Origin: Mycolicibacterium sp. MU0053
GTDB lineage: Bacteria; Actinomycetota; Actinomycetes; Mycobacteriales; Mycobacteriaceae
NCBI RefSeq assembly: GCF_963378095.1
Contig: NZ_OY726397.1
Span: 1,736,001 to 1,800,000 of the forward strand
Reading direction: 5' to 3'
Length of the DNA: 64,000 nucleotides
The notes beneath the pieces were generated by a model. That model did no database searches. It was not told the origin of the DNA and saw only the letters and a list, made by a program, of their open reading frames with translations. Below are positions 13,508 through 62,774 of this stretch, piece by piece (positions within the stretch are counted from its first letter, which is position 1; every line of letters starts with the position of its first letter). The translations under genes and the position numbers were made by a program.

Positions 13508-13551
13508 TCAGTAGCGCTACTGATGTCGGCGACGCCAGACCTTGTCATCCT
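13508..13551 (+). promoter_or_regulatory. 7-2-7 palindromic activator site (variant) and -10, upstream of the acyl-CoA dehydrogenase pair
   Basis: TCAGTAGCGCTACTGA (13508-13523) is perfectly symmetric and extends to 18 bp (13507-13524). It differs from the window consensus TCCGTACNNGTACGGA at four positions, always in symmetric pairs, and shares the TCAGTA or TACTGA half-sites seen at 25954 and 43087. CATCCT at 13546-13551 is a candidate -10, placing the palindrome centre near -42.5. Confidence 0.5.
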
Positions 13552-13629
13552 GTGAGTACACGGCGTCCGCACCGTGGACAGCTCTGTGTTTGCGGAAGCT
13601 GTTGTAGGCGAAAAGGATTAAAAAACGGG

Positions 13630-14820
13630 ATGGCGACCGGAGCAGAGCTGCGCGACCTGGACGGCACCTCCGTAGGCGATTTGCGTCTCGAGATCCGCGA
13701 CTGGCTGGACCGCGAGTTGCCGCCCGATCGCCGCAGCTGCCTCGGCATGTCCGGCGGTCACGATCCGGCCTTCTCCCGCAAGCTCGGCAAGGCCGGTTGG
13801 CTGGGTTTATCGGTGCCCGTGCGCTACGGAGGACACAACGGAACGGCCGTGCAACGGTTCATCGTGACCGAAGAACTGCTGGTCGCTCAGGCACCCGTGG
13901 GGGCGCACTGGTTGGCCGATCGGCAGGTCGCTCCATCGATCCTTCGGGTCGGCACCGAGGAGCAGCGGCGTACCTTTCTTCCGGCCATCGTGCGGGGCGA
14001 GACCTACTTCTCCATCGGGTTGAGTGAACCCGAAGCGGGCAGCGACCTTTCGGCGGTTCGGACCCAGGCCCGCCGGGTGGCCGGCGGTTGGCGAGTATCG
14101 GGCACGAAGATATGGACCACCTTCGCCCAGTACAACCATTACCTGCTCACGTTGTGTCGAACGCAGCCCCGCGGCGAGGACCGCCACAGCGGTCTGTCCC
14201 AGTTGATCATCCCGCTCGGATCAGACGGGGTACAGGTACGCCCCATTCGGACCATGGACGGTAGCGAAGAGTTCTGCGAGGTCATCCTCGACGACGTCTT
14301 CGTCCCCGAAAATCGACTCCTCGGCGACGAAGGGCAGGGATGGGCCCAGGCGGCGGCCGAACTCGCTCTGGAACGCTATGGGCCGGAGCGCTGGCTCTCG
14401 GTATGGGGATGCTTGACCGGCATTGCCGGTCAAGCGAGCGGCGATCGTCTCGCCGGCGGCGCGGCAGCGGCCGAGATCGGGCGCCTCATGGCGAAATACC
14501 GCACGATTCGCCGGGTGTCGCTGGATGTTGCGCGCAGTATCGATCGCGGGTTGACCCCTACCGTGCAAGCTGCGGTGGCCAAGGATCTTGCGACCGCCCT
14601 GGAACAGGAGACAGTTGAAGTCGTGCGCCGCCTGTGGGGGCGCGAACTGGCGCCATCTTCCTCGAATGATGTCGAATCGTTGCTCGCCCGCGCCGTGCTC
14701 GCTTCGCCCACCTTCACCATCCGTGGCGGGACCACGGAGGTGTTGCGCGGACTCATAGCACGGGCTGATCGAGTGCCGGCGGTCGCTAGACATTCCGACG
14801 ACACCGCGGGGGTGCGATGA
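13630..14820 (+). CDS. Acyl-CoA dehydrogenase, subunit with FAD/active-site motifs
   Basis: A 396-residue acyl-CoA dehydrogenase. Seen are the ETYFSIGLSEPEAGSDLSAV segment that contacts substrate and FAD, the WTTFAQYN loop and the C-terminal RGGTTEVLRGLIARAD motif with the usual position of the catalytic Glu. It oxidises acyl-CoA thioesters to enoyl-CoA. The ATG at 13630 gives the family length, and AAAGGA lies 12 nt upstream. Its stop overlaps the start of a second, shorter dehydrogenase gene (ATGA), an arrangement typical of heteromeric mycobacterial dehydrogenases of the FadE26/27 or FadE28/29 kind that act on steroid-like CoA thioesters. Confidence 0.9.
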   Translation: MATGAELRDLDGTSVGDLRLEIRDWLDRELPPDRRSCLGMSGGHDPAFSRKLGKAGWLGLSVPVRYGGHNGTAVQRFIVTEELLVAQAPVGAHWLADRQVAPSILRVGTEEQRRTFLPAIVRGETYFSIGLSEPEAGSDLSAVRTQARRVAGGWRVSGTKIWTTFAQYNHYLLTLCRTQPRGEDRHSGLSQLIIPLGSDGVQVRPIRTMDGSEEFCEVILDDVFVPENRLLGDEGQGWAQAAAELALERYGPERWLSVWGCLTGIAGQASGDRLAGGAAAAEIGRLMAKYRTIRRVSLDVARSIDRGLTPTVQAAVAKDLATALEQETVEVVRRLWGRELAPSSSNDVESLLARAVLASPTFTIRGGTTEVLRGLIARADRVPAVARHSDDTAGVR

Positions 14821-15878
14821 CTGCCGTACACAGCGCGACCGCCGAAGCGGTCGGCGACCTGTTCCGGGCCACGAATTCGACTGGTGGGACGTCAGTTACG
14901 AGCCACCCATGGGACGCATTCGTCGCCGCCGGGTTCCCTTGGGCGACAGTGCCTGAGGAGCGGGAAGGTCCAGGCGGGGCCGTGCCCGACGGGCTGGACA
15001 TTCTTCGTGAGATCGGACGGGCTGCGGCACCGGTCCCGGCCGGCGAAACAGATCTGTTGGGCGACTGGTTGTTACGCCAGGCTGATTTGCCGGCGGTACC
15101 TGAGCTGCTCGCCGTCGCACAGGGCAACACCGCGGATGACCTGCGGCTGCACCGTGACGGCGACCGAGTGATGTTGAGTGGCACTGCTGACCGGGTTGCG
15201 TGGGCAGCACGGAGCGGTCGCTTTGTCGGGTTGGTGAGCGACGAAGACGCCAATTACGTTGTATGCGTTCCCATTGAAAGACTCACGATCACCCCCGGGA
15301 CGTCCCTCGCCGGCGAGTCCCGGGACATGGTGACTGCCCGTGCGGTGGCACTGGACACCAACGAGATCGGTGCCGCCCCGCAACTGGACCTCATCGACCT
15401 TCGGGCCAGGGGAGCGGCGACGCGCGCGGTGCTGATACAGGGTGCGGTGGAGGCCGTGGTCGAACTGGTGCGGGACTACTGCGAAGTTCGCACACAGTTC
15501 GGACGACGCCTACGAGATTTTCAGGTGGTCGGCCACCAACTTGCTTTGATGCGCGAACATGCGACCTTGGTGAGCGCCGCAGCCGAGCTTGCCAGCGCCG
15601 TCCTACAGGGCTCCGGGTCGTGGGAAGACGCGGCGACTGCGAAGATCGTCGCGGGCGAGGTCGCCGGCCACATCGCCAAGGCGGCTCATCAACTCCACGG
15701 AGCCATCGGTGTTTCGGAAGAGTATGTTCTGCATCGCTATACGCGTCGCCTGTGGGCGTGGCGGGACGAGTACGGCAGTGAGAACGAATGGGCCCACCGA
15801 CTGGGCGCGACGCTTGTCCAGCGCGGCCCAGACGCGCTGTGGCCGTGGGTCGCCGCTGCCGCGGATCAGGGCGGATGA
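14817..15878 (+). CDS. Acyl-CoA dehydrogenase, partner subunit
   Basis: A 353-residue protein of the acyl-CoA dehydrogenase fold, shorter and more diverged than its neighbour. The N-terminal half lacks the SEPxAGSDL substrate loop. The C-terminal half keeps the helix bundle (FGRRLRDFQVVGHQLALM; HQLHGAIGVSEEYVLHRYTR). Such reduced partners in alpha2beta2 dehydrogenases usually lack the catalytic base and contribute part of the FAD site. The 4-nt overlap with the upstream gene supports a complex. Confidence 0.85.
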   Translation: MTAVHSATAEAVGDLFRATNSTGGTSVTSHPWDAFVAAGFPWATVPEEREGPGGAVPDGLDILREIGRAAAPVPAGETDLLGDWLLRQADLPAVPELLAVAQGNTADDLRLHRDGDRVMLSGTADRVAWAARSGRFVGLVSDEDANYVVCVPIERLTITPGTSLAGESRDMVTARAVALDTNEIGAAPQLDLIDLRARGAATRAVLIQGAVEAVVELVRDYCEVRTQFGRRLRDFQVVGHQLALMREHATLVSAAAELASAVLQGSGSWEDAATAKIVAGEVAGHIAKAAHQLHGAIGVSEEYVLHRYTRRLWAWRDEYGSENEWAHRLGATLVQRGPDALWPWVAAAADQGG

Positions 15879-16091
15879 CCATTGCACACGCGTCGCCGCT
15901 TACGTGACCGGGCTCAGACCGAGTCCGCACGAGGCGCTGGCCGCCGGCTCTGCCCCGCTCACACGAACGTCTCACCACGACACCATGACTCGATGCCCAG
16001 CGAGCCAAGAGAACAACGACCGATGGAAGACCGAGAGTATGAGTTATGAAGCCGTAGTCCGATGGCGTTTCGCCGACCTCCGCGCTGACCG

Positions 16092-16901
16092 ATGAGACTG
16101 CCTACTCGCGGCGAGGCGGCAGATGTGCGTCCGGCGACGGACCCACTGCTGATGGAACGTGTCGCCTCTGATGTCGTGTTACTGACGCTCAACGTGCACG
16201 AACGCCGCAATGCGATGACGGCCGAGCTGAGCGAGGCGTGGACTGAGGCTATAGCAACGCTGAGCCAGGATCGCTCGGTTCGCGCGGTGGTCGTCACGGG
16301 CGCCGGAACGGCGTTCTGCGCCGGAGGTGACTTCGACTGGCTCGAATCGACCATTCAATCCCATGGTTCGGTAAGCGAGCTTCGGTCGACAATGAGCTGC
16401 TTCTATCAGGGCTGGCTCTCCATCCGAGAGTTGGCGATCCCGTCGATAGCAGCCGTCAACGGGCCGGCGATCGGAGCCGGTCTGTGTCTCGCTCTGGCAT
16501 GTGACTTGCGGATTGCGAGTCCCACAGCGAAGTTCTCGGCACCGTTCACCTCACTCGGTGTGCATCCGGGCATGGCGGCAACCTGGCTGCTGCCGGAAGC
16601 CGTTGGGATGCCACGCGCCCGGGACATGTTCTTGACCGGGCGTGAACTATCCGCCGAGGAAGCCGTCGGGTGGGGTCTGGCCTCGGCTGTGGCTGACGAC
16701 GTCGTCACCCGAGCAGTTGAGGTTGCCAAGTCCATCGCCGCAAATGACGGGCTGTCGGTCGAGCTCACCAAATCGGCGCTCGCTCAACCGCATCGATCGC
16801 TTGCTGAGGGATTGAATTGGGAAGGTTTCGCACAACCGATGACGATGATGCAGGGCGTCAACGCACGTCAGAACGGGGCCGCGAGCCGGCCCGGCGAATA
16901 A
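16092..16901 (+). CDS. Enoyl-CoA hydratase/isomerase family protein
   Basis: A 269-residue crotonase-fold protein. The two oxyanion-hole motifs are seen (TAFCAGGDFDWL, NGPAIGAGLCLALACD). It probably hydrates the enoyl-CoA formed by the preceding dehydrogenase pair. ATG 16092 is the furthest in-frame start; ATG 16152 (MERVASDVV) begins the conserved fold and is equally likely. A 213-bp gap without recognisable features separates it from the dehydrogenase genes. Confidence 0.85.
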   Translation: MRLPTRGEAADVRPATDPLLMERVASDVVLLTLNVHERRNAMTAELSEAWTEAIATLSQDRSVRAVVVTGAGTAFCAGGDFDWLESTIQSHGSVSELRSTMSCFYQGWLSIRELAIPSIAAVNGPAIGAGLCLALACDLRIASPTAKFSAPFTSLGVHPGMAATWLLPEAVGMPRARDMFLTGRELSAEEAVGWGLASAVADDVVTRAVEVAKSIAANDGLSVELTKSALAQPHRSLAEGLNWEGFAQPMTMMQGVNARQNGAASRPGE

Positions 16902-17033
16902 GGGGGGGCCGGCTACGAGCAACCGTGATCCTGCCTTTCGGCCGCGCTGGTTGCCGCCGGCAGACGGGGGAGCACGAAGGTCGGCGTCAGCACGAACTCG
17001 CCGAACGCCAGAGCAGACGAAAGGTTGTCAAAT

Positions 17034-18578
17034 ATGGTGGAAGCCCAGACAACGACCGGTTGGGTCCGCGGCTTCGTCCGCGACGGGATCGCGACTTTCA
17101 GGGGTGTGCCCTACGCTGCTGCGCCGACAGCTGAGCTGCGCTTCTGCCCGCCGCAGCCTGCCGATCCGTGGACGGGGGTGCGCGACGCGACCGCCCAAGC
17201 CGCCGCGTGCCCGCAGCCCGCGCTTCCGCGGTTGTTCGACAAGCTCGACCCCGCTGACCCAACGGCCAAATTCGTCGAGAGGTACGACGAGGACTGCCTG
17301 ACGGTCAATGTCTTTACGCCTGCGGTGGATTCAGCTGCCCGCCCGGTCATGGTCTGGCTGCATGGCGGGTGGTTCTCGGTCGGATCGGGCAATGAGCCGT
17401 GCTACGACGGTAGCAACCTGTGCCGGATGGGCGATGTTGTCGTTGTCACGGTCAATCATCGCCTCGGGGCATTGGGCTTTCTTTCGCTGGCCGGTTGCGG
17501 TGACGACCGCTTTGAATCGTCAGCCAATCACGGGCTGCTCGATATCGTCGAAGCGCTCAAGTGGGTCCGCGACAACATCGCTCAGTTCGGCGGAGATCCC
17601 GCCCGCGTCACGGTATTCGGCGAGTCCGGTGGTGCCGCGAAGATCAGCATGCTGCTCGGTGTCGACCAGGCGCGCGGGCTGTTCCATCGGGCGATCGTGC
17701 AGAGTGGGCCGATGCTGCGTGCAGTCGAGATCGAGCGCGCCAACGCCGCAGCAGCGGCGCTTTTCACTGAGCTGGGGATCACCTCCATCCAGGAACTGCG
17801 TGAGCTACCGGTAGCTGCGATCATCGACGCCCAAAACACCGTCCTGGGTGGTCCGCTGGGCGGTCTGTATGGCGATGGGCCCCAGATGGCGGCGACGATC
17901 GATGGCCGCATCATCGAACAACATCCGTTTGACCCCGCCGCTTCGCCGCCATCCCATGGTGTTGCGCTGTTGATCGGATCGTGTCGCGACGAAGCCAGCA
18001 TGATGGTTGCCACCGTGCCCGGTATCGATTCGATGGAGCCGGAGCGGCAGGTAAAGCTGTTAACCGACAACGTGTTCGGACATGCGCTTGACGATCTGGT
18101 GGAAAGGTATGCGGCGACGAGGCCGGAGGCATCAGTGGCTGAGCGCTTCCTGGCTGCGGTCACCGACCAGATCCGGATCGGCGGAATCACGATGGCCGAA
18201 CGAGCCGTCGCAGCCGGCGGGCAGGCACACATGTACCGTGTCGATCACGTGCCCTCGGTGTACGGGGGCAAACTCGGTGCGCCGCACACGATCGACGTAG
18301 GTTTCGCGTTTGCCAACACCGACGCAGACGCGGGTGTCACCTCACCGAATCGTGGTCTCTACCAGGATCGGGATGTCTCGCGTCTGACCGAAGAGATAAG
18401 CGGCGCGTGGATTGCATTCGCCCGCAACGGCCATCCCGGCCACGCCGGGCTGCAGGAGTGGCCCAGCTATCGTCCCGAGCGCCGCTCAACCATGATCTTC
18501 GGACCACAGTCGGGAATTGTCGACGACCCTGAGTCCGAGGAACGCGAGATCTGGCGTGGCCGGGACGGGGGAATGTAG
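17034..18578 (+). CDS. Type B carboxylesterase
   Basis: A 514-residue alpha/beta hydrolase of the type B carboxylesterase family. Features: FRGVPYAAAP near the N-terminus, the oxyanion-hole WLHGGWF, the nucleophile in FGESGGA (Ser about 198) and a C-terminal His region (GAPHTIDVGF). No signal peptide, so cytosolic. It may hydrolyse an ester or lactone substrate or intermediate of the surrounding pathway. I chose ATG 17034 because AAAGG at about 17019-17023 is 10 nt upstream; TTG 17025 is in frame but too close to it. Confidence 0.88.
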   Translation: MVEAQTTTGWVRGFVRDGIATFRGVPYAAAPTAELRFCPPQPADPWTGVRDATAQAAACPQPALPRLFDKLDPADPTAKFVERYDEDCLTVNVFTPAVDSAARPVMVWLHGGWFSVGSGNEPCYDGSNLCRMGDVVVVTVNHRLGALGFLSLAGCGDDRFESSANHGLLDIVEALKWVRDNIAQFGGDPARVTVFGESGGAAKISMLLGVDQARGLFHRAIVQSGPMLRAVEIERANAAAAALFTELGITSIQELRELPVAAIIDAQNTVLGGPLGGLYGDGPQMAATIDGRIIEQHPFDPAASPPSHGVALLIGSCRDEASMMVATVPGIDSMEPERQVKLLTDNVFGHALDDLVERYAATRPEASVAERFLAAVTDQIRIGGITMAERAVAAGGQAHMYRVDHVPSVYGGKLGAPHTIDVGFAFANTDADAGVTSPNRGLYQDRDVSRLTEEISGAWIAFARNGHPGHAGLQEWPSYRPERRSTMIFGPQSGIVDDPESEEREIWRGRDGGM

Positions 18579-18589
18579 CCGTTGTGGTT

Positions 18590-18633
18590 TGCGTACCGGT
18601 ACGGATCCAGCGCACATGGCGGACAAATAGTGT
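18590..18633 (+). promoter_or_regulatory. 7-2-7 palindromic activator site and -10, upstream of an enoyl-CoA hydratase gene
   Basis: TGCGTACCGGTACGGA (18590-18605) matches the consensus TCCGTACNNGTACGGA with one mismatch. TAGTGT at 18628-18633 is a candidate -10, which puts the palindrome centre near -42.5 and the transcript start near 18640. Confidence 0.62.
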
Positions 18634-18666
18634 CCTGCTGGTGACCCTTGGCGGATGTGGCGTGCG

Positions 18667-19500
18667 ATGAGCGCCAATATCATCGTTCAGCGATCCGACG
18701 GTGTGGTCCACGTATCGTTGAACAGGCCCGCGCGCAAGAACGCGATGCTGCCCGAGATGTGGGCGGAGCTCACCGCCATCATCGCCGAAATTGAGAACTG
18801 CTCCCGTGACCGCGTTCTGGTGCTTACTGGTGAGGGCGGGTCCTTCTGCACCGGAGCCGATATCGCGGCGCGCCATGAACGGACCACCGATCGTTCTGCG
18901 GTGATGACCCCCGAGCGACTGCTTGCCGACATCAAGCAATGCGTGCTGAGCCTGACCGAGATGTCGAAGCCCAGCATCGCCGCCGTCGACGGCATCGCCG
19001 CCGGTGGGGGATGCAACCTCGCGCTCGCCTGCGATCTCGTTGTCGCCAGCGGCCGGGCACAGTTCAGCGAGATCTTCGTACGCCGGGGACTCACCGTGGA
19101 CACGGGTGGCTCCTGGATTCTGCCACGCCTGATCGGATCTGCCCGGGCACGCCGTTTGGTCTTGCTGGGCGAGGTGGTTGACGCCGAACTCGCCTATCAG
19201 TTAGGCCTCGTGACGCATCTGGTGCCCTCCGGTGACTTTCACACGGAGGTCGCGACGATCGCGGGCCGGCTCTCCGAGACCCCCGCCATGACACTTGCCG
19301 CAGACAAGCGGTTGCTCGCAGAGTCGCCCACGGGGACGTTGGTCGAAGCACTGGACCGCGAGACGGCGAGTCAGCTCGAGATGCTGAGTCAACCGCACGT
19401 GGTGGCCGCTCGACACGAGTTCTTGGCCCGTCAGCGTGGCACGGGCGCAGCAGATTCCCCGACGTCGGAATTACCAACAGGTGGAGGAAAGGTCTTGTGA
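18667..19500 (+). CDS. Enoyl-CoA hydratase/isomerase family protein
   Basis: A 277-residue crotonase-fold protein with SFCTGADIAARH and DGIAAGGGCNLALACD motifs. The start at ATG 18667 (MSANIIVQRS) fits the family; ATG 18655 is an in-frame alternative. First gene after an intergenic activator-type palindrome and probably first of an operon with the ketosynthase-like, thiolase and alcohol dehydrogenase genes that follow. The exact substrate is unknown. Confidence 0.87.
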   Translation: MSANIIVQRSDGVVHVSLNRPARKNAMLPEMWAELTAIIAEIENCSRDRVLVLTGEGGSFCTGADIAARHERTTDRSAVMTPERLLADIKQCVLSLTEMSKPSIAAVDGIAAGGGCNLALACDLVVASGRAQFSEIFVRRGLTVDTGGSWILPRLIGSARARRLVLLGEVVDAELAYQLGLVTHLVPSGDFHTEVATIAGRLSETPAMTLAADKRLLAESPTGTLVEALDRETASQLEMLSQPHVVAARHEFLARQRGTGAADSPTSELPTGGGKVL

Positions 19501-19582
19501 GTCGTATTTCGAAACGCGTTACTACGGTGGTCAAGCTTCGCGGCGACTGTGCTCATCGGCTGCACCCGCATCGAGATGACTC

Positions 19583-21007
19583 ATGAGCGCCCTGGTCGGC
19601 TACGGAACCTACCTTCCGTATTGGCGTCTCGACGCTGCCAGCATCCGCGAGGTGCTCGGAAGCAGCGGCGGTAAGGGAACACGTGCCGTCGCGGCGTACG
19701 ACGAGGACGCAACCACGATGGGCGTCGAAGCCGCCCGAGACGCGCTGGCCCACGCGCCGGAAGGGTTTGTGCCCGAGGCGCTCTACTTCGTAACGACCAG
19801 TCCCGCCTATGTCGACAAGACGAATGCGGCCGCCATCCACGCCGCGCTGGGACTGCCTCAACACGTCCCGGCATACGACTTCGGCGGGGCAACCCGATCC
19901 ATCAGCGGCGTAATGGATTTGGTGCAAGCAAGTAGCCTTCCGGCGCTCGTCGTGGCGTCGGAGTTGCGCACCGGCCTACCCGGGAGTGCTGACGAGGCGA
20001 CCGGCGGAGACGGAGCCGCGTGCTTCCTGTTCGGCGAGTCCAATGAAGCTCTGGTAGAAGTGCTGGCATCGGCATCGGCGACCGAAGAATTCCTGGATCG
20101 TTGGCGCGTACCAGGACAGGATGCGTCGCGGCTGTGGGAAGACCGTTTCGGCGAGTCGGCCTACCAGCCGCTGGGTCGGGCGGCCTTCACCGACGCGCTG
20201 AAGAAGGCGGGGCTCAGCGTAGCGGACGTCGACCACCTTGTCGTTACCGGATTGCACACGCGCGCAGTCCGCGCATTCACGAAATGGAGCGGAGTGCGTC
20301 CCGAGGCGCGGTCCGACGATTTGGTACCGCGGATCGGTAATACCGGTAGCGCGGCACCGGGAATCAGCTTGGCCCACATCCTCGATACAGCCGAGCCCGG
20401 GGCAGTGATCGTGAGCGTGGCGTTGGCCGACGGGGCCGACGTGGTGGTCATGCGTGCCACCGAACAGGCGGTATCGGCGCGTGCACAGCATCGACGTACC
20501 GTACGGCAGTTGATCGACGGCGAGCACGGACAGCTCAACTACGGGTCATTCTTGACCTGGCGCGGACGCCTGGATCGGGAGCCGCCACGACGGCCGAACC
20601 CACCGTCTCCGGCGGCCGGCCCATCGTTGCGCCGTCGGGATTGGAAGTTCGGGCTGACGGCAAGCCGCTGTGAAAACTGCGACACCCGTCATCTTCCCGC
20701 CGCGCGGGTGTGTGTTCAGTGCCGCACCAGCGATCGGATGCTGGCTGAGCGGGTCGCCGAGGAGCGAGCGACCGTGGCCACCTACACCGTCGACCGGCTG
20801 GCATTTTCACCGTCACCGCCTTTGATCGCGGCGATGATCGACTTCGACGGCGGCGGGCGGGCCGGCGTTGAGATCACCGACGCCGGACCTGACGACATCG
20901 CGATCGGCACGCGCCTCGAGATGACGTTCCGCCGGCTGTATACCGCTGAAAACGGTGTGCACAACTACTTTTGGAAAGCACGTCCGATTCGAGAGGCAGG
21001 TGAATAG
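19583..21007 (+). CDS. HMG-CoA synthase/KAS III-like protein fused to a zinc-ribbon OB-fold domain
   Basis: A 474-residue two-part protein. The N-terminal part (about 1-330) is thiolase-fold, of the 3-oxoacyl-synthase III / HMG-CoA-synthase-like type (VGYGTYLPYWRLD; TTSPAYVDKTNAAAIHAALG; GNTGSAAPGISLAHIL). The usual nucleophilic Cys position reads PAYDFGGATRS and has no Cys, so synthase activity is doubtful. The C-terminal part (about 350-470) is a DUF35-type rubredoxin-like zinc ribbon (CENCDTRHLPAARVCVQC) plus OB fold, known to partner SCPx-type thiolases. The thiolase gene starts immediately after this stop. Confidence 0.82.
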   Translation: MSALVGYGTYLPYWRLDAASIREVLGSSGGKGTRAVAAYDEDATTMGVEAARDALAHAPEGFVPEALYFVTTSPAYVDKTNAAAIHAALGLPQHVPAYDFGGATRSISGVMDLVQASSLPALVVASELRTGLPGSADEATGGDGAACFLFGESNEALVEVLASASATEEFLDRWRVPGQDASRLWEDRFGESAYQPLGRAAFTDALKKAGLSVADVDHLVVTGLHTRAVRAFTKWSGVRPEARSDDLVPRIGNTGSAAPGISLAHILDTAEPGAVIVSVALADGADVVVMRATEQAVSARAQHRRTVRQLIDGEHGQLNYGSFLTWRGRLDREPPRRPNPPSPAAGPSLRRRDWKFGLTASRCENCDTRHLPAARVCVQCRTSDRMLAERVAEERATVATYTVDRLAFSPSPPLIAAMIDFDGGGRAGVEITDAGPDDIAIGTRLEMTFRRLYTAENGVHNYFWKARPIREAGE

Positions 21008-22198: not shown

Positions 22199-22248
22199 CA
22201 GCGCTTTCCCCAGTTAATGCGCTGATCCCACAACATAGGAGGGCACGG

Positions 22249-22284
22249 ATGGCAGTCGAGGCACTTACGAGAGGCCCGTGGTGA
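22249..22284 (+). CDS. Possible 11-residue leader peptide overlapping the alcohol dehydrogenase start
   Basis: AGGAGGG at 22237-22243 is followed 5 nt later by ATG 22249, opening an 11-codon frame (MAVEALTRGPW) that stops at 22282-22284, within the first codons of the alcohol dehydrogenase gene in another frame. This is the best ribosome-binding site in the gap, while the dehydrogenase GTG has none. It could be a coupled leader peptide or the remnant of a different start. Confidence 0.35.
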   Translation: MAVEALTRGPW

Positions 22285-23351: not shown

Positions 23352-23391
23352 TCGCACAAAGCACTGGCATTGCACCGCGAGCGGCGCGCCC

Positions 23392-23889: not shown

Positions 23890-23900
23890 CAGTCACCTCG

Positions 23901-23963: not shown

Positions 23964-24002
23964 ACAAATCGCAGAAAGGACGGTAAGGGTGGGGATTAGG
24001 AC

Positions 24003-27348: not shown

Positions 27349-27375
27349 CCGCCACCGGAAACGAAAGCACATACC

Positions 27376-45706: not shown

Positions 45707-45719
45707 CGTCGTCTTCCTT

Positions 45720-53259: not shown

Positions 53260-53267
53260 TCGCGGCC

Positions 53268-54979: not shown

Positions 54980-55079
54980 GCAGCACCCTCGTTTCGCTGC
55001 CAGGTGGGTGACCACTCGATTGCAAGACCGAGAACCGGCGCGCCACGGCACTGAGGCGGATGGGGATATGCACGGGTGG

Positions 55080-55124
55080 AGAGTAGAACGTGACTGCTGG
55101 TAAATGGCTCCGTACTGTTACGGA
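55080..55124 (-). promoter_or_regulatory. 7-2-7 palindromic activator site and -10, upstream of the yrbE-mce operon
   Basis: On the plus strand TCCGTACTGTTACGGA (55109-55124), one mismatch. On the minus strand TACTCT (55085-55080) is a candidate -10, giving a centre near -43.5 and a start near 55073, 94 nt before yrbEA. The flank GGAGGTGCGG on the plus side equals that at the PGRS site, so the site might also act toward the divergent XRE gene. Confidence 0.58.
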
Positions 55125-55259
55125 GGTGCGGTCGAACCGCCGCTGCCGGCTGAACTGCTCCGCGAGCGTGATAGGCAACTCCAACTCGGCCGGCGGGACC
55201 TGATCAATCGAAGGCGGCAACGTCGTCCCGCCCACGAGGACCGACGTTAGGATGCCGTT

Positions 55260-56132
55260 GTGGGCTCTACCGATGCTCAGAAACCTCGCAACGAAGCGGC
55301 GAACCATCGAGCCGAGCTCGGCAGATACTTGCGGGCACGTAGGGAGCAATTGCATCCGGAAGACTTCGGCATCGCTCGAGCCCGACGTCGCCGTGTACAA
55401 GGTCTCCGCCGCGACGAGGTCGCCAAACTCGCGTCAGTGAGTCCCACTTGGTATACGTGGCTCGAGCAAGGGCGCGACATTCAGGTGAGTGTGGAAGTTC
55501 TCGACGCGGTTTGTCGGGTATTACGGCTCGACGACCACGCATCGCGTTATGTCCGTCATCTCGCGGGCAAGCCCGTGTCAGAGCCCACGACCAGTGCCGG
55601 CGTGACGGATCCTGCCGTTGAGTCTTTGATAGCCAGCCTGCTTCCGGCTCCCGCGTGCGCCGTGACGGAAGCCTACGACATGCTGGTCTGGAACAGGGCG
55701 CTGGCAAAGGTGATCGGTGATCCGGCGACCGTGCCGCCGGAGCAGCGCAACCTCGTTCGAATGTGCTTTGACAATCCAACGTTTCGCCGGCGCGTGTCCG
55801 GCTGGTCAGCGATCGCAGCGACTGCGATTGCTGAACTACGAGTGGTGTCGGCGCTCCATCCCCATAGCGAACGCCTGGGCCAACTCATCGATCAGATGAC
55901 GGTGTCGAACCCTGATTTTCGCCAGGCTTGGGACGCGTTGACCGTGCGCCCGTTCTTTGGTGAGGTCGTCACCATCGACCTCAGCGGCACCGACGCCGTT
56001 CGCGTCAAAGTGATGGAACTCGTGTTGCGGGAAGAGAGTCCGATCACCATCGTCATCTTTCAGCCCGTCGACGCCGAAAGTCGGACGGTGTTGGCAGGCC
56101 TCGTCGACACCGAGAGCGAGCCTTCGAGCTAG
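55260..56132 (+). CDS. XRE family regulator with MmyB-like ligand-binding domain
   Basis: A 290-residue protein. Residues about 15-85 form an XRE helix-turn-helix (LGRYLRARREQL; RRDEVAKLASVSPTWYTWLE). The remainder (about 100-270) is of the MmyB type (YDMLVWNRALAKVIGDP), a PAS-like domain that can bind fatty acids in family members. GTG 55260 is the start. Divergent from the mce operon across 280 bp containing a 7-2-7 site, so it may sense lipid and control transport, or be part of the regulon. Confidence 0.87.
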   Translation: MGSTDAQKPRNEAANHRAELGRYLRARREQLHPEDFGIARARRRRVQGLRRDEVAKLASVSPTWYTWLEQGRDIQVSVEVLDAVCRVLRLDDHASRYVRHLAGKPVSEPTTSAGVTDPAVESLIASLLPAPACAVTEAYDMLVWNRALAKVIGDPATVPPEQRNLVRMCFDNPTFRRRVSGWSAIAATAIAELRVVSALHPHSERLGQLIDQMTVSNPDFRQAWDALTVRPFFGEVVTIDLSGTDAVRVKVMELVLREESPITIVIFQPVDAESRTVLAGLVDTESEPSS

Positions 56133-56200
56133 CGCGAGGCACGGGTCCGCCCGATCCGGGGTCGAAGCCGGCCGCGCCATGTCGCCGTCGGTATGCGCAA

Positions 56201-56221
56201 AGGTGGTATGAAATACCACCT
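56201..56221. promoter_or_regulatory. Perfect inverted repeat upstream of the second P450 operon
   Basis: AGGTGGTAT (56201-56209) and ATACCACCT (56213-56221) are 9-bp arms around GAA. No T-run follows, so it is more likely an operator than a terminator. It is unlike the 7-2-7 palindrome. It lies 166 nt before the P450 start and 69 nt after the XRE stop. Confidence 0.45.
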
Positions 56222-56387
56222 CCCTCACTCGCCCAAATCCATTGCATTGTCGGACACGAGGTCAGTACCTTCATGTGGTCTGCGCCGAACAAGTAATGCG
56301 CGAAACTCGATACGCGACGAATCCGAATCGTCGTAGGCCCGCTTTCCGCGCGTATTCGGGTGTATAGCGCAACGAGGAGGAACCCGC

Positions 56388-57617
56388 GTGTCAGCTAAAC
56401 CGGTTGTCTCGTTCGACCACCATTCCGCGGAGTTCGCGAATGAGTCCAACGAAATTCTCTCGGATCTCCGGAAGCGGTGCCCCGTGGCGTGGACGGAGGC
56501 GCACGGTGGATATTGGGTCATCACCGAATACGATGATCTTGCCGCGATCGCTCGGGACGATCAGGCCTATTCGTCGCAACACGATCTCGAAGGTCCGAAG
56601 CAAGGCGTTTTGATACCGCCCATTCCCAACCCGTCGGGGATCCTGGAAATGGATCCGCCGGGCTTCCGCAAGATACGTCGTGCACTTGCTCCATATTTCT
56701 CGCCGGCCGCAATCAAGTCGATGCGGGAGGAAATTTTGGATCTGACTACGCAATGCATCGACGATTTCATCGAGCGGGGCGAGGCCGACCTCATCGAGGA
56801 GTTGGCTAGTCCGGTACCGGCAATGTTGACGGTCCGCCTCCTGGGGTTGCCGATGTCTGAATGGCCAGCCTTGGCCGAGGCCTTTCACAAGGGGGCCTAC
56901 CTGCCCCATGACGAAGAGCACATGGGTGACATCCAGGAGATGTTGATGGGGGTCTACGCGCAGTTGTCGGAGGCAGTCAAGCAACGCCGCGCCAAACCAC
57001 AGGACGACCTCATCTCCGCCCTCGCGAACCTTGAAATCGATGGAGAGCTGGTGCCTCTCGAGGTCGCGACGGGTAACCTCCAGCTGCTCGCCGCGGGCGG
57101 CATCGACACCACAACCAGTCTGATGGCGCACACGTTCATGCATCTCGACCGGGTCCCGGCCGACCGCGAATATCTGCTCGGTGACTTATCACGGACTCAA
57201 CTGGCCTGCGAGGAATTCTTGCGCGTCTACCCGCCGATCCCGGGAATGGCCCGCACCGTGACAGTCGATCACAAGTTCGCTGATCAGGAATTCTCCCAAA
57301 ATGATCGCGTGTGGTTCTCGTGGGGCTCGGCGAACCGCGACGAGAAACTATTCGACAATCCCGACGAGGTTCGATTGGACCGATTCCCGAACAGGCATAC
57401 ATCTTTCGGGTTGGGTGCACATCGATGCCTCGGATCGAACATGGCGCGGACCGTTTGGGAGATTGTTGTCGGCGAAGTTCTCACACGGTTGCCCGACTTT
57501 CGCGTTGACCGGACTGCTGCGCAGCGCTATCCCGACTGCGGCGAGATCAATGGCTGGGTCTCCGTACCCGTGAGCTTTTCACCAGGTAAACGAATCCGCG
57601 ACACGGCAGGAAAATAG
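56388..57617 (+). CDS. Cytochrome P450
   Basis: A 409-residue soluble P450: I-helix AGGIDTTTS, ExxR as EEFLR, heme Cys347 in FGLGAHRCLG. GTG 56388 follows a strong GAGGAGG by 7 nt. It is followed by a ferredoxin gene after 2 nt, then alcohol and aldehyde dehydrogenase genes, so the likely sequence is hydroxylation of a methyl or methylene carbon and oxidation to the acid. Confidence 0.93.
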   Translation: MSAKPVVSFDHHSAEFANESNEILSDLRKRCPVAWTEAHGGYWVITEYDDLAAIARDDQAYSSQHDLEGPKQGVLIPPIPNPSGILEMDPPGFRKIRRALAPYFSPAAIKSMREEILDLTTQCIDDFIERGEADLIEELASPVPAMLTVRLLGLPMSEWPALAEAFHKGAYLPHDEEHMGDIQEMLMGVYAQLSEAVKQRRAKPQDDLISALANLEIDGELVPLEVATGNLQLLAAGGIDTTTSLMAHTFMHLDRVPADREYLLGDLSRTQLACEEFLRVYPPIPGMARTVTVDHKFADQEFSQNDRVWFSWGSANRDEKLFDNPDEVRLDRFPNRHTSFGLGAHRCLGSNMARTVWEIVVGEVLTRLPDFRVDRTAAQRYPDCGEINGWVSVPVSFSPGKRIRDTAGK

Positions 57618-57619
57618 CC

Positions 57620-57820
57620 ATGAAACTTTCAGTTGATTCCGCCCGATGCCAAGGTCATACGGTGTGCTACATGGTCGCCCCGGACCTTTTCAAACTCAGT
57701 GAAATCGACGGCCATGCATCTGCTGCCGTAGATGAAGTTCCGGAGGAGCTCCTCCACGTGGCACAAATGGCGGTTGAGGGATGTCCCGAACAGGCCATCT
57801 CCCTTGATGAGAACGAATGA
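57620..57820 (+). CDS. [3Fe-4S] ferredoxin, P450 redox partner
   Basis: A 66-residue ferredoxin of the P450-associated type: CQGHTVC near the N-terminus (with His in place of one Cys) and EGCPEQAI at the C-terminus, ligating a 3Fe-4S cluster. It starts 2 nt after the P450 stop and is surely co-translated. No ferredoxin reductase gene is in the window. Confidence 0.92.
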   Translation: MKLSVDSARCQGHTVCYMVAPDLFKLSEIDGHASAAVDEVPEELLHVAQMAVEGCPEQAISLDENE

Positions 57821-57899
57821 TTTCGTCTTCAGCCCGTGACTTCCGCGCGGTTGAAATCTCAAGCAGGCGAAACGATAAGCACGAACGCTCGAGCAAAGG

Positions 57900-59024
57900 A
57901 TGGTATCGACGTTGAAGACGAAAGCTGCAGTGCTCTGGGAGCCGAACACTCCGTGGAGCATCGAAGAGATTGAATTGGATCCGCCTGGTCGCGGCGAGGT
58001 GCTGGTGAAGTTGGCCGCCAGCGGGCTGTGCCACAGCGACGAACACCTCGTGACCGGTGATATTCCGTTCGCCCTGCCGATTGTCGGTGGCCACGAAGGG
58101 GCCGGCGTAGTTGAGCAGGTCGGAGAGGGGGTCAGCTGGATCAAGGTCGGCGACCATGTGGTGTTCAGCTTCATTCCGGCGTGCGGGCTCTGCCCGAGCT
58201 GTTCGACCGGTCACCAGAACTTGTGTGACCTCGGCGCCATGCTCGCAGCCGGGATGCAGGTCAGCGACGGAACCAGCCGTCACCATGCGCGTGGCGAGGA
58301 CCTCAAGATCATGTGCCTGCTCGGTTCCTTCGCCCACCACACGGTGGTCAACGAAGCGAGCTGCGTGAAGATCGACGACGATTTCCCCCTGGAACTCGCC
58401 TGCCTCCTGGGGTGCGGTGTCGTCACCGGATGGGGGTCGGCGGTCTACGCCGCCGAGGTGCAACCCGGCGACACGGTGGTCGTGGTCGGCGTCGGCGGTA
58501 TCGGCGCAAACGCGGTGCAGGGCGCCAAACTGGCGGGCGCAAAGAACATCGTCGCGATTGATCCGGTGGAGTTCAAGCGCGACATGGCAATGAAGTTCGG
58601 TGCAGCCCACACCTTCAGCTCGTTCGATGAGGCGCTGCCGGCCCTACAGGAACTCACCTGGGGGCGGATGGCGGACAAGGTGATCATGACGATGGGCATC
58701 GGCTCCGGTGAGTTCCTCGGCTCGGCACTGGCGTTGGCGTCAAAACGGGGCCGAGTCGTCGTGACCAACATTCACCCGGCCGCAGAGTACTCGGCAGCCA
58801 TCAGTCTGCTCGACTTGACACTCATGGAAAAGCAGGTCGTGGGCGCGGTGTTCGGTTCTGGCAACCCCCGCGCCGACATCCCGAAGATGATCGGCCTACA
58901 TCGCGAGGGGCAGCTCGAGCTCGACGGTCTGATCACGAACACCTACCCGCTGGAAGGGGTCAACGAGGGATACGAGGCGATGCGGGCCGGTGCCAATATC
59001 CGCGGTGTTCTGCGCTACGAGTAG
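57900..59024 (+). CDS. Zinc alcohol dehydrogenase, NDMA-dependent type
   Basis: A 374-residue medium-chain dehydrogenase. Zinc ligands in SGLCHSDEH and GGHEGAG; structural zinc CGLCPSCSTGHQNLC; nucleotide motif VVGVGGIGANAV near residue 200. Length and the extra segment LAAGMQVSDGTSRHHARGED match actinobacterial NDMA-dependent alcohol dehydrogenases with tightly bound NAD. The start may be ATG 57900, GTG 57903 or TTG 57912; AAAGGA at 57895-57900 fits the last best. Confidence 0.87.
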   Translation: MVSTLKTKAAVLWEPNTPWSIEEIELDPPGRGEVLVKLAASGLCHSDEHLVTGDIPFALPIVGGHEGAGVVEQVGEGVSWIKVGDHVVFSFIPACGLCPSCSTGHQNLCDLGAMLAAGMQVSDGTSRHHARGEDLKIMCLLGSFAHHTVVNEASCVKIDDDFPLELACLLGCGVVTGWGSAVYAAEVQPGDTVVVVGVGGIGANAVQGAKLAGAKNIVAIDPVEFKRDMAMKFGAAHTFSSFDEALPALQELTWGRMADKVIMTMGIGSGEFLGSALALASKRGRVVVTNIHPAAEYSAAISLLDLTLMEKQVVGAVFGSGNPRADIPKMIGLHREGQLELDGLITNTYPLEGVNEGYEAMRAGANIRGVLRYE

Positions 59025-59160
59025 CAAGGGCATGCGACCCGGGAACCGCTGCCCAAGCCTCGCGCGAGGACGGGTGCCGGCGGTGACCGTGACGCCGGTG
59101 TCATTTCGGAGATCGCCAAGTCAGAAGACCATTGCGGGATGCGAGAAGGTGACGGAAGTG

Positions 59161-60597
59161 ATGGAAACAACGATCCCAGAGTACGAGGGCCTGTACATCG
59201 GGGGACAGTGGCTCCCCACGGCGACGGGTGACTCGATCGAAATAATCTCACCGGTGACCGAGGGACGCCTAGGGAGCTCGCCGGCGGCGTCGACCACCGA
59301 TATCGACCGAGCCGTCGCAGCGGCTCGTAAGGCGTTCGACGAGGGGCCGTGGCCGCGGATGCCGGTGCTGGAGCGGATCGCCATTCTGGAGCGGGCCCGC
59401 AAGATCTACGCCACCCGAGCCGACGAGATATCGGCGCTGATAACAGCTGAAATGGGTTGTCCCTCTTCGATTTCGGGTCTGCTGCAAGTCGGCTATCCGC
59501 AGCACATTCTGGACTACTACTTGGAACTCGCGGGCAGCTGGAATTTTGAGCAGCAACGAGGACAATCCCTTGTCAGGCAGGCTCCGGTGGGCGTGGTGGC
59601 CGCTATCGTGCCCTGGAACACCCCGCACAGCGCATTCATGGTGAAGCTGGCCCCGGCCCTGCTGAGTGGATGCACGGTCGTAGCCAAGCCGTCCCCGGAA
59701 ACGGCGCTCGACGGACTATTGCTCGCGGAGATCTTCGCGGAGGCGGGGTTGCCCGAGGGCGTGCTCAACGTTGTTCCAGCAGGTCCGGAGTCGGGGGAGT
59801 ACCTCGTGAGTCACGCGGGGGTCGACAAGGTCAGCTTCACCGGATCGACGGCAGCGGGCATGCGAATCGCTTCCATTTGCGGGGGCGCCATCCGCCGATA
59901 CTCGTTGGAACTCGGTGGCAAATCGGCCGCCATAATCCTCGACGACGCTGATATCCCGACCGTCGTGCAGGGCCTTCGTTTTGCGTCGTTCCTCAACAGC
60001 GGTCAGGTTTGCACGAATCAGACCAGAGTCCTGGCTCCCAAAGCCAGGTATGGCGAGGTTGTCGACGCGTTATGCCAGATGGTCCCGACGATGAAGATCG
60101 GCGATCCAACCGATCCGACCACCGAGATCGGTCCGCTTGTCTCGGAGCGGCAGCGGCAACGTGTCGAGCACTACATCAGCGTTGGCTTGGCAGAGGGGGC
60201 CACCATCGCGGCGGGCGGCGGGCGACCGTCAGCACTTCCTGCCGGCTGGTTCATCGAACCCACCATCTTCTGCGATGTTGACAACGCCATGACGATCGCG
60301 CAAGACGAGATCTTCGGCCCCGTCGTGGCGGTGCTCGCCTACGACGACGAGGACCACGCGGTGAGTATCGCCAATGATTCTCGCTACGGACTTGGCGGCG
60401 GCATTTGGACGGCCGACGTCGAACGCGGAGTCGACCTCGCTCGCCGCGTACGCACCGGCCAGCTGAGCATCAACGGCGCGAGCAGCGAACTGACCACACC
60501 CTTCGGTGGATTCAAGCAGAGTGGTGTCGGCCGGGAGTCTGGTCCTGAAGGATTATTGAATTATGTCGAGCTACAGGCGATAACGTGTCCGGCATGA
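59161..60597 (+). CDS. Aldehyde dehydrogenase
   Basis: A 478-residue NAD(P)-dependent aldehyde dehydrogenase: VPWNTPHSAFMVKLAPAL, SFTGSTAAG, catalytic Glu in LELGGKSAA, catalytic Cys in NSGQVCTNQTR, and EIFGPVVAVL. It would turn the aldehyde from the preceding alcohol dehydrogenase into an acid for CoA transfer. GTG 59158 or ATG 59161, after GAGAAGG, are the likely starts. Confidence 0.92.
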   Translation: METTIPEYEGLYIGGQWLPTATGDSIEIISPVTEGRLGSSPAASTTDIDRAVAAARKAFDEGPWPRMPVLERIAILERARKIYATRADEISALITAEMGCPSSISGLLQVGYPQHILDYYLELAGSWNFEQQRGQSLVRQAPVGVVAAIVPWNTPHSAFMVKLAPALLSGCTVVAKPSPETALDGLLLAEIFAEAGLPEGVLNVVPAGPESGEYLVSHAGVDKVSFTGSTAAGMRIASICGGAIRRYSLELGGKSAAIILDDADIPTVVQGLRFASFLNSGQVCTNQTRVLAPKARYGEVVDALCQMVPTMKIGDPTDPTTEIGPLVSERQRQRVEHYISVGLAEGATIAAGGGRPSALPAGWFIEPTIFCDVDNAMTIAQDEIFGPVVAVLAYDDEDHAVSIANDSRYGLGGGIWTADVERGVDLARRVRTGQLSINGASSELTTPFGGFKQSGVGRESGPEGLLNYVELQAITCPA

Positions 60598-60696
60598 GTG
60601 GCGGCCGGAGCTCGCCAGGAGCCGTACGGACAGGATCCGGAACGGCCGGGTGCTGCCCTGTTTGTCTGATTCCGTCCACGAGCAGCGAGGTGATCA

Positions 60697-61239
60697 GTGA
60701 ACGTTGTTGATCGTTGTGTCACAGTTGCGACTCGCGTCGACGCGGCTGGTGTCGGCTGGATTACGGCTCATCCTGGTGAGCGTGGCGACGGCCTGGCCAC
60801 GCAGCAGGAGATTCTCGACGCGCTCGCCGAACTCATCGCCGATCCTGCAGTACGGACGATTATCATCGCCGGCCAGCCGCTGGCAGTGCTCAACGGTTCG
60901 CACAGCTGCGAGGCTTCCCCCGAAGAGGTAGCTGTTGGGATGCGCTTCCGCCAGCTCAGCGAACAACTGTGGAACTCATCGAAAACGCTGATCATCCGTC
61001 GCCACGAGGGCGTCGCGTCCGCCACGCTGCCTGATGCGCCGGCATATACCGAGCCACTCACCGAACGCGAACTGCAGGTCGTGGCGATGGCTTGCCAGGG
61101 TGCGTCCGCACGGCAAATGGGTGATCGCCTGTTCATCAGCGAGCGCACAGTCGAGTCGCATGTCAGCAACGCGTATCGCAAGCTGGGAATCCGCTCCCGT
61201 ATCGAGCTCGTCAGGCGCGCGGCATATTTCGGCTTCTGA
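60697..61239 (+). CDS. Small LuxR/GerE-type transcriptional regulator (paralogue 2)
   Basis: A 180-residue protein with a C-terminal GerE helix-turn-helix (about 120-180; PLTERELQVVAMACQGASAR, then RTVESHVSNAYRKLGI) nearly identical to that of the regulator at 23392. The N-terminal part is about 20 residues longer but shares TRVDAAGVGWIT, LIADPAV and SEQLWNSSKTLI. No phospho-acceptor receiver is seen. GTG 60697. A half-site GTACGGA at 60624-60630 lies upstream without a clear -10. Confidence 0.88.
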   Translation: MNVVDRCVTVATRVDAAGVGWITAHPGERGDGLATQQEILDALAELIADPAVRTIIIAGQPLAVLNGSHSCEASPEEVAVGMRFRQLSEQLWNSSKTLIIRRHEGVASATLPDAPAYTEPLTERELQVVAMACQGASARQMGDRLFISERTVESHVSNAYRKLGIRSRIELVRRAAYFGF

Positions 61240-61302
61240 CTGAGATGTGCTACCTACGCTGACATCGCGCCCACCGATGCGTGGAGGAGAATGAGATGAC
61301 CG

Positions 61303-62508
61303 TTGCCTGAGTTGGCTGGGTTCCGTGATCACTTCAATCACACAATCCCGGGCTTCTCGCAGCGTGCGCTGGACGTGTACCGCACGATGCGGGAGCATTG
61401 CCCCATCACCCGCTCCGACCAACTTGGTGGCTTCTGGGTAGTCAGCAATTACGACGCGACCGTCGAGATACTCTCTCAGCCAGATGTTTTCGTGTCCGCC
61501 GAGGCTGCGGTGATTCCCGCGCTGCCGTTTCCTTGCCGTGGTATACCGAACGCATCAGACCCACCGCTGCACCACGACTACCGCGGTGTCCTCATGCCGT
61601 TCTTGACTCCCGACGCGGTAGCGCGCCACGAACCGATGGTCCGTGAAACAGTCGGGGCGCTGATTGACTCGTTCATCGGTGACGGTGAGGCGGACTTCGT
61701 CGCGCAGTTCGCGTCGCGGCTCCCGTGCCAGGTAACGGCGGGGATCTTCGGCTTCGAACGCCACGATGCAGAGCGCTGTTACGGGTGGCTATCCGAGATG
61801 CTGAATCCGCCGGATGGCGACCCGATAACCGCCGCCGCAGCAGCCGACAGTCTGCATGAATTCTTCGTGGGCATGCTGGCTGCCTCGCGCGCAGAACCCG
61901 ACGGCAATCTAATTTCAGCGATCTCGAGTCACGTCAGAGCAGGGGCCGGACAGTTCTCGGATGAGGAATGCATTGCCCTGGTATTCAGCGCCGTCGGTGC
62001 CGCGCTCGAGACGACGGTCAGTGCACTCACGTCGATCGTTGTGTATCTGGACCAATTGCCCTCTGTGCGCGCGCAACTCATCACCAACCCGTCCTTGGTC
62101 GATCGGGCCGTGCAGGAGGTGCTACGCATGGCACCGCCCGCCCACTGCCGGGCACGAACGGTGCGAAGGAATGTGGAGGTCGGCGGAGTCACCTTCAAAG
62201 CCGCTGACCGGGTCCTGTTGTTGTTCGGATCTGCGAACTACGACGGCCGGCGGTTCGCGACCCCGGAGTCCTTTCGCCTGGATCGTAGCGACAATCCGCA
62301 TCTCAGCTTCGGTCACGGAATCCACAGCTGTTTGGGGGCGGGGCTGGCCCAACTCGAGATGCGGGTGACGCTTGAGGAAATTCTCAAACGAATGCCGGAC
62401 ATTCAAGTGATCAGTGGATCGGGCCCCGTCATCAAGAACGGTGCCATGTGGGACTACGAAACACTGGGCGTCCAGTTCATTGCGCGCCCGGTGGTGCAGA
62501 CCAGCTAA
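61303..62508 (+). CDS. Cytochrome P450, possibly with a 1-nt shift at its start
   Basis: A 401-residue P450: ExxR as EVLR, heme Cys343 in FGHGIHSCLG, and I-helix GAALETT, where the usual second Gly is Leu. It is clearly related to the P450 at 62808. The best start (ATG 61296 with GGAGGAG upstream) reads MTVA then stops at 61308-61310; removing one T there would give MTVAELAGFRDHF, matching the neighbour's MTTVEFAEFRDHF. As it stands, TTG 61303 must start the protein, or the sequence carries a 1-nt insertion. Confidence 0.85.
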   Translation: MPELAGFRDHFNHTIPGFSQRALDVYRTMREHCPITRSDQLGGFWVVSNYDATVEILSQPDVFVSAEAAVIPALPFPCRGIPNASDPPLHHDYRGVLMPFLTPDAVARHEPMVRETVGALIDSFIGDGEADFVAQFASRLPCQVTAGIFGFERHDAERCYGWLSEMLNPPDGDPITAAAAADSLHEFFVGMLAASRAEPDGNLISAISSHVRAGAGQFSDEECIALVFSAVGAALETTVSALTSIVVYLDQLPSVRAQLITNPSLVDRAVQEVLRMAPPAHCRARTVRRNVEVGGVTFKAADRVLLLFGSANYDGRRFATPESFRLDRSDNPHLSFGHGIHSCLGAGLAQLEMRVTLEEILKRMPDIQVISGSGPVIKNGAMWDYETLGVQFIARPVVQTS

Positions 62509-62730
62509 TCTGGCACCGATTCGGGTTCGCGCAGCGGGCCGCCGCGTCGTCTGTCGGGCACCGCTCAACACGGGCCGCTTGGGCGTGAAAGTTTTTTGCC
62601 AGCTGCGAACCTGACGGGGCAGAGCAGCGGTGTCCACCCGTCTGCTCGGCGGCCACAACCGGGGGGATGGGGACGCCAATGTACTCCCGGCTTTCTGGCC
62701 ATTTGTAGTCGGAGCCGTGCGAGTTCTGTC

Positions 62731-62774
62731 TCGGTAGTGGTACTGAGTTGCGGGGCATTCGCCACTTGTAATCT
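62731..62774 (+). promoter_or_regulatory. 7-2-7 palindromic activator site (weak) and -10, upstream of the last P450
   Basis: TCGGTAGTGGTACTGA (62731-62746) has three mismatches to the consensus; its TCGGTAG and TACTGA halves resemble the 13508 variant. TAATCT at 62769-62774 is a good -10, giving a centre near -42.5 and a start near 62781, 27 nt before the P450 ATG. Confidence 0.4.

Follow-up and report, generated by a model that had tools for sequence, protein, structure and literature searches.

We propose that the 16-bp palindrome TCCGTAC-NN-GTACGGA, which recurs ahead of catabolic and import genes in an apparently acquired island of Mycolicibacterium sp. MU0053, is the operator of an island-specific pair of LuxR/GerE activators, LuxR-A and LuxR-B, and that this pair would drive about 14 promoters by class II activation. 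Judged from the sequence, the probability of this reading is about 0.7. The DNA analysed, referred to here as the window, is a stretch of 64,000 nucleotides (bases 1736001-1800000 of one 5,453,374-base contig), and all coordinates follow its numbering. An initial annotation, made from the letters of the window alone, had described nine copies of the palindrome as marks of a catabolic/import regulon. The sharing of one site by catabolic and import promoters stands, but the putative regulon is not genome-wide: it is confined to the acquired island and comprises 11 sites and about 14 promoters.

A palindrome confined to one island

The operator consensus is a 7-2-7 inverted repeat. A pattern scan of the window found it at all nine coordinates listed in the initial annotation: without mismatch at 35994 and 39283, with one mismatch at 18590, 25954, 35384, 43087 and 55109, and in weaker form at 62731 (three mismatches to the consensus) and 13508 (TCAGTAGCGCTACTGA, four mismatches). 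At up to three mismatches the window holds 10 matches, compared with a mean of 2.6 and a largest count of 7 in 100 shuffles. Matches at 6621 (within nadE) and 40606, with three mismatches each, were left out of the site set; the latter lies inside an open reading frame (ORF) at 40597-43029, ahead of the start picked by the gene caller.

Across the whole genome the palindrome occurs eight times with at most one mismatch, each time within one 56 kb stretch (18590 to 74317) inside an insertion of ~72.6 kb, while a control with the reversed pattern gave no match. Allowing up to two mismatches raises the count to 12, nine in the island and three elsewhere (reversed-pattern control, 6), and the relaxed form TCNGTANNNNTACNGA has nine genome matches, eight in the island and one outside (control, 2). 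Scattered matches were also seen in 197 other genomes of the genus, 0-3 in each at up to one mismatch and at least one in 48 of the 197, and no two lay on one contig less than 100 kb apart, some of these assemblies being in many contigs.

Sequence was also read 20 kb beyond the left end of the window and 40 kb beyond its right end, giving 124 kb in all. Two further sites lie just past the right end of the window, at 65596 (two mismatches) and 74317 (perfect), which are positions L013:1596 and L013:10317 of the right-hand extension, labelled L013. With these two the set grows from nine to 11 sites. Scored by a leave-one-out matrix, the 11 range from 17.2 to 26.2, and none of the other 16-mers in the 124 kb reaches any held-out score; under the full matrix the best non-site scores 12.2. 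Because this scoring separates all 11 from non-sites, the weak sites 13508 and 62731 are counted as members. Seven positions are invariant in all 11 sites (T1, G4, T5, A6, T11, C13 and A16). All ten sites checked fall outside called genes and 13508 falls outside listed genes too, as the described intergenic location would have it; an ORF read from a TTG start at 43074 would overlap the 43087 site. Genome confinement, the genus-wide scan, the relaxed-form scan and leave-one-out scoring together rule out chance or a genome-wide repeat, and the palindrome set is genuine.

The two perfect sites within the window, 35994 and 39283, also have a common string, AGAAGGGTGCGT, ~45-50 bp past the palindrome, which is perhaps a ribosome site or a duplication.

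Spacing to the -10 hexamer

When sites were oriented by their neighbouring genes, giving 12 promoters, the hexamer NANNNT began 22 or 23 bases past the palindrome in 11 of the 12 and TANNNT in 6. TANNNT occurred at no other offset within 0-59, and NANNNT at any other single offset in at most three of the 12. The 22-23 bp offsets were fixed after the sites had been inspected by eye, the initial annotation having already placed a -10 element 21-24 bp downstream, a range that is here narrowed. With either strand allowed, NANNNT is present at 11/11 sites (0.126 at random positions) and TANNNT at 8/11 (0.0062).

The spacing follows gene direction. NANNNT stands at 22-23 bp in 13 of 15 gene-facing directions and in one of seven directions without a gene (25954, GAGCCT); for TANNNT the corresponding counts are 8/15 and 0/7. 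Two gene-facing directions lack NANNNT, the DUF7700 side of 35384 (TACTCA) and the XRE side of 55109. At the divergent sites, 13508 and 74317, there is a NANNNT candidate each way.

With the -10 hexamer set at -12 to -7, the palindrome would occupy -50 to -35, or lie one base farther out, with its predicted centre at -42.5 or -43.5, within the -41.5 to -43.5 claimed in the initial annotation. The best -35 match, at spacers of 16-19, averages 2.08 of 6 bases, compared with 2.51 at random positions. A predicted site centre near -41 to -44, a -10 hexamer and the lack of a good -35 are thus all found in the sequence, and the fixed -10 spacing, together with a -35 no better than random, agrees with the class II activator geometry that had been suggested. 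With the ORF starts as taken here, predicted leader lengths lie between -30 and 166 bases; the negative values, at 13508 on the plus strand and 35384 on the minus strand, would require a later start codon. For gene 36044 the predicted transcript start coincides with its ATG, and this transcript may be leaderless.

LuxR-A and LuxR-B as the proposed binders

Given that sites with at most one mismatch are restricted to the island, the regulator is most likely island-borne, and a host-wide regulator is unlikely because all eight genome sites at this threshold (8/8) are in the island. Five regulators were found there: a TetR-type protein at 6954, LuxR-B (23392-23889, minus strand), a second TetR-type protein at 24003, an XRE/MmyB protein at 55260 and LuxR-A at 60697. 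By elimination and geometry, LuxR-A and LuxR-B are the best candidates for the binder. The initial annotation had named both of its LuxR-type proteins, TetR 24003 and the XRE protein as binding candidates; the evidence leans, if only lightly, toward the LuxR pair and makes the other two less likely.

LuxR-A (60697..61239, plus strand, 180 aa) consists of an enoyl-CoA-hydratase-like front half and a GerE half (PF00196, 66.5 bits; cut-off 23.5), and is a proposed activator. LuxR-B (23392..23889, minus strand, 165 aa), its paralogue, is the other. Both score above the GerE cut-off in a search of the genome, in which 14 of 16 GerE matches lie outside the island, so the two LuxR-type proteins noted earlier are both GerE-type and both within the island. 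LuxR-A has no match to a receiver domain or to a Pfam autoinducer-binding domain at E <= 10, and a receiver match is missing for 53 family members at E <= 1 among the 25 of 36 families listed. By their sequences, LuxR-A and LuxR-B are GerE proteins and not two-component response regulators.

Overall identity between the two proteins is 58%, with 81% for the GerE half against 45% for the front half, and a single residue distinguishes their recognition helices. This pattern is as expected for two sensors that read one DNA site, or for a heterodimer.

The front half and its resemblance to enoyl-CoA hydratases

Pfam ECH_1 matches the front half of LuxR-A at E 0.16. A 53-row profile of the family, compared with PDB sequences, found the enoyl-CoA hydratases 2ej5, 5ylo, 6ium, 2pbp and 4kd6 at E 0.008-0.37 over profile positions 7-102. 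Alignment of the front half to 24 hydratases of the same genome by hhalign gave Prob 83%, a score of 39.6 over 61 columns and E 9.1e-6, a value that holds for one comparison only; none of 60 column shuffles scored above 18.7, and the reversed control scored 15.2. The hydratase set was made from 30 loci of 58 hydratase matches plus three window genes, minus nine entries of more than 330 residues, two window genes being present twice. An earlier hhalign run with a noisy hydratase set had given Prob 20% and E 0.0011.

An AlphaFold2 model (pLDDT 79.5, pTM 0.71) gives the front half the order strand-strand-helix-strand-helix-strand, which we take to be the order at the beginning of the crotonase fold; in a fold comparison the listed rows cover the GerE half only. 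In sequence, the front half resembles enoyl-CoA hydratases and would be related to them. A complete crotonase catalytic domain is absent, with ~104 residues ahead of the GerE linker and 61 columns spanned by hhalign, and catalysis is not expected because the remainder of the hydratase enzyme is missing. The resemblance suggests that the front half may sense CoA-thioesters or contact a pathway enzyme.

Relatives in other genomes

Relatives of LuxR-A/B were sought in 396, 401, 326, 131 and 138 genomes (drawn from the genus, family, genus, order and relatives, respectively), in overlapping draws that all included the own genome. At E <= 1e-25 matches came from the own genome, one other genome (G185) and, with the GerE half only, a third (G569); at E <= 1e-12, weak matches, mostly to the GerE half, were found in 29 more of the 396 genomes. 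A single-sequence search for related loci returned only a GerE-half match, in Mariprofundus, and plasmids gave no match to island DNA 39000-55300 and none to LuxR-A.

A further search gave 165 matches. Among the 120 of them that were listed, the first 58 (to P0061, E 6e-25) resemble the LuxR-A/B family, this genome's own members being P0011 and P0041, and later ones match chiefly in the GerE half. Among the matches listed, Mycolicibacterium sp. XJ1819, M. holsaticum and sp. XJ879 each have two family members on contigs of equal length, from which we infer that the paired members, and the XRE relatives described below, share one contig. The XJ1819 and XJ879 pairs consist of an A-like and a B-like protein, and in M. 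holsaticum the second protein, P0037, is short and closer to A.

Other candidate binders

The strongest competitor, though an unlikely one, is the MmyB-like XRE regulator (55260..56132, plus strand), which would bind the palindrome and activate the island, its PAS-like domain sensing a fatty-acid-like ligand, while the LuxR pair does something else. One palindrome lies 136 bp upstream of its gene, with a -10 hexamer only toward mce. In the accessible text of PMC3406030, MmyB is an activator, MltR was crystallised with a fatty acid, and a dimer of the MltR/MmyB type would cover about 10 bp of a two-fold site. Relatives of the XRE protein (67-75% identity) occur in XJ1819 and XJ879 on contigs equal in length to those of the LuxR pair; that of XJ879 (182 aa as called) lacks a helix-turn-helix match, possibly through a start-call error. 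Upstream of 19 mycobacterial XRE homologues, GTACNNGTAC was found in none (0/19), with the limits that these are distant (34-42%) and that the pattern is strict enough for the XRE gene's own site to fail it too. Eight of the 19, closely related to one another, have ACTA-N12-TAGT upstream instead (L048-L054, L056), a possible operator of that MmyB-like subfamily. Three close XRE relatives (P0138, P0139 and P0140) are, as called, without a DNA-binding domain and keep the ligand-binding part, by truncation or start-call error.

It is rather less probable that a TetR-type protein, 24003 or 6954, represses the promoters by covering the -35 region. Palindromes are the usual operators of TetR proteins, both TetR genes are in the island, and the palindrome does cover the -35 region. 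A repressor, however, would need neither a spacing fixed to 1 bp nor a poor -35, and in the site set no copy of the palindrome lies at either TetR gene. TetR 24003 (24003..24599, plus strand) is divergent from LuxR-B, which it may control, and between the two genes stand its candidate operators, two dyads in tandem, GTTACAC-N14-GTGTAAC (23900..23964, one mismatch each), whose sequence differs from that of the palindrome. No third such dyad was found in the 124 kb at up to three mismatches, and the two are suggestive by their place, because two matches of this kind arise in 23 of 100 window shuffles. Between TetR 6954 and an FAD enzyme gene, at 7590-7780, an apparent inverted repeat around CTTATCG/CATAAGC was noted by eye and is perhaps TetR 6954's own operator.

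Marginally less probable again is that the sites are bound by a protein whose gene lies outside the island, or by an island regulator that was overlooked. The 14 GerE matches outside the island leave room for the former and a scan that covered part of the island ORFs for the latter, but the lack of outside sites at up to one mismatch and the few scattered matches across the 197 genus genomes fit an island-borne binder. That the palindromes are mobile-element repeats or a chance amplification devoid of regulatory role is very improbable: a transposase pair does lie in the island, but the flanking sequence varies between sites, the -10 spacing tracks gene direction and the leave-one-out matrix separates sites from the rest without overlap.

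Several observations weigh against LuxR-A and LuxR-B as activators through this operator. The LuxR pair was found together with the sites in no other genome searched, and G185 has a B-like protein with no site at up to two mismatches in the 60 kb around its gene. In the 11-site set there is none before the LuxR-B gene nor directly before LuxR-A, so autoregulation through the palindrome is not visible. The plus-strand promoter at 35384 has TTGATC, with four of six -35 bases. As for the front half, ECH_1 is not a confident assignment by Pfam (at most one of 53 members at E <= 1) and is not among the 25 of 36 families listed, the unrelated PDB chains 1wy6 and 5int fall within the hydratase E range, and the hhalign E value carries the single-comparison limit given above.

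Proposed mechanism and its implications

In the model that we favour, LuxR-A and LuxR-B would bind the palindrome as homodimers or as a heterodimer. The dimer, at -50 to -35, would replace the missing -35 and recruit RNA polymerase to the -10 hexamer 22-23 bp downstream; between divergent gene pairs, one symmetric site would serve both sides. About 14 promoters would be driven in this way, ahead of beta-oxidation, P450, amidohydrolase/CoA-transferase, CoA-ligase and mce import genes. The signal would probably be read by the hydratase-like half of the two proteins, as a CoA-thioester intermediate or as contact with a pathway enzyme, and the divergent TetR 24003 probably gates LuxR-B.

To a wider proposal we give somewhat less than an even chance: that a paired LuxR family reuses a hydratase front as a CoA-thioester sensor, and that one pair switches a whole acquired island, in both directions, through a new 7-2-7 operator. 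If the model is true, a ~72 kb lipid-type island carries its own activation system, which would help explain immediate function in a new host, and an enzyme fragment placed as a metabolite sensor before GerE would be a new acyl-CoA sensing route and a possible biosensor part. The about 14 predicted promoters, with exact positions, are material for testing class II activation in a mycobacterium.

The island and its predicted operators

The island extends from 6937 to about 79603 (~72.6 kb; in-window part 6937..64000), between nadE and the PEMT/rbsK genes. In seven of eight relatives chosen by hand for comparison, all but L157, an orthologue of rbsK (6) or PEMT (1) comes no more than 1.5 kb after that of nadE, and the island's TetR 6954 and MFS genes stand beside nadE in none (0/8). 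GC content per 2 kb is 0.59-0.67 inside the island, compared with 0.68-0.71 in the first 6 kb, and codon scores are lower within it. The region looks like an acquired insertion.

Pfam identifies among the island enzymes acyl-CoA dehydrogenases, enoyl-CoA hydratases, a thiolase, a thiolase-like protein with a ChsH2-type OB domain, P450s, Amidohydro_2 proteins, CoA-transferase III (single and double), SDRs, zinc alcohol dehydrogenases and aldehyde dehydrogenases, along with a luciferase-like enzyme, two AMP ligases, LUD proteins and MlaE/MlaD genes. This content of the downstream genes confirms that the sites stand ahead of catabolic and import genes; our guess is a substrate of lipid type, a terpenoid or steroid.

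From left to right, the weak operator 13508..13523 would act both ways, on LUD/CCG genes (minus strand, -10 TACGCT) and the first acyl-CoA dehydrogenase gene (plus strand, CATCCT). On the plus strand, 18590..18605 precedes enoyl-CoA hydratase 18655 and thiolase genes (TAGTGT), and 25954..25969 precedes P450 26089 and amidohydrolase, SDR, acyl-CoA dehydrogenase and hydratase genes (TACCGT). The operator 35384..35399 faces amidohydrolase/CoA-transferase genes (minus, CACCGT) and the DUF7700 gene (plus, where only TACTCA is present). Both perfect operators of the window are predicted to act on the plus strand, 35994..36009 on the PGRS/CMD-domain gene 36044 (GATCCT) and 39283..39298 on amidohydrolase 39368 and the double CoA-transferase 40597 (TAAGTT), as is 43087..43102 on a DUF732 gene (start taken 43185; CATACT). 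Toward the minus strand, 55109..55124 precedes the mce importer genes, of which the first is an MlaE gene at 54113-55051 (TACTCT), with no -10 toward the XRE gene. The weak operator 62731..62746 precedes P450 62808 and a cupin gene on the plus strand (TAATCT). Beyond the window lie the operators at 65596, with its two mismatches, and 74317, perfect and divergent, with a -10 candidate on each side.

Three features of the island's genes may be recorded alongside. The ORF at 36044-39046, directly behind a perfect operator, fuses PGRS repeats with a carboxymuconolactone-decarboxylase-type (CMD) domain. Two-domain CoA-transferase III proteins, with two stretches each, are encoded at 40597-43029 and L013:4009-6372, and each adjoins an Amidohydro_2 gene. 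The transposase pair (rve integrase core and HTH_Tnp_1) lies at 31780-32993.

Comparison with known systems

Cholesterol genes of mycobacteria provide one comparison: KstR and KstR2 are TetR-family repressors whose palindromes control beta-oxidation and import genes, with motifs that differ from the one described here, and, unlike theirs, the geometry here is that of an activator. The GerE domain of LuxR-A matches the PDB sequences 1zlk and 3c3w of DosR/DevR of M. tuberculosis, an activator with palindromic sites; DosR/DevR is a two-component regulator, and its operator letters differ from the palindrome here.

The arrangement resembles that of NarL of E. coli, a GerE protein which, according to the accessible part of PMC7419079, binds 7-2-7 inverted repeats, in which two elements of seven bases face each other across 2 bp, and is able to activate with its site centred at -44.5. 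Unlike NarL, LuxR-A and LuxR-B would use other operator letters, have no receiver domain found, are paired and island-local, and possess a hydratase-like front half. They resemble the single-domain actinobacterial LuxR regulators (PMC3466318, in the portion available) in having one GerE domain and a front half that standard models do not recognise. The partners listed in that census are receiver, CHD, HDc, AAA and others, and neither crotonase nor hydratase occurs as a word in its main text. MmyB/MltR-type XRE regulators are cluster-specific activators, as the available text of PMC3406030 has it; the island has one member, and the palindrome was not found before the 19 homologues.

The initial annotation knew of no mycobacterial regulator with this motif, and a literature search, with most subscription journals outside it, found no description of such regulators or of the palindrome among the matches listed. 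The accessible parts of PMC6498646, PMC3406030, PMC12565409, PMC3466318 and PMC7419079 contain neither, and literature matches to both half-site strings were unrelated by title, among the matches listed.

Within the crotonase superfamily, the front half of LuxR-A and LuxR-B aligns to the first ~60-100 residues; unlike crotonases, the two proteins end before the rest of the enzyme and continue as GerE, and neither is expected to be an enzyme. Compared with these systems, the operator itself appears new, as do its restriction to a single acquired island, its use in both directions and the hydratase-related front half of its proposed binders.

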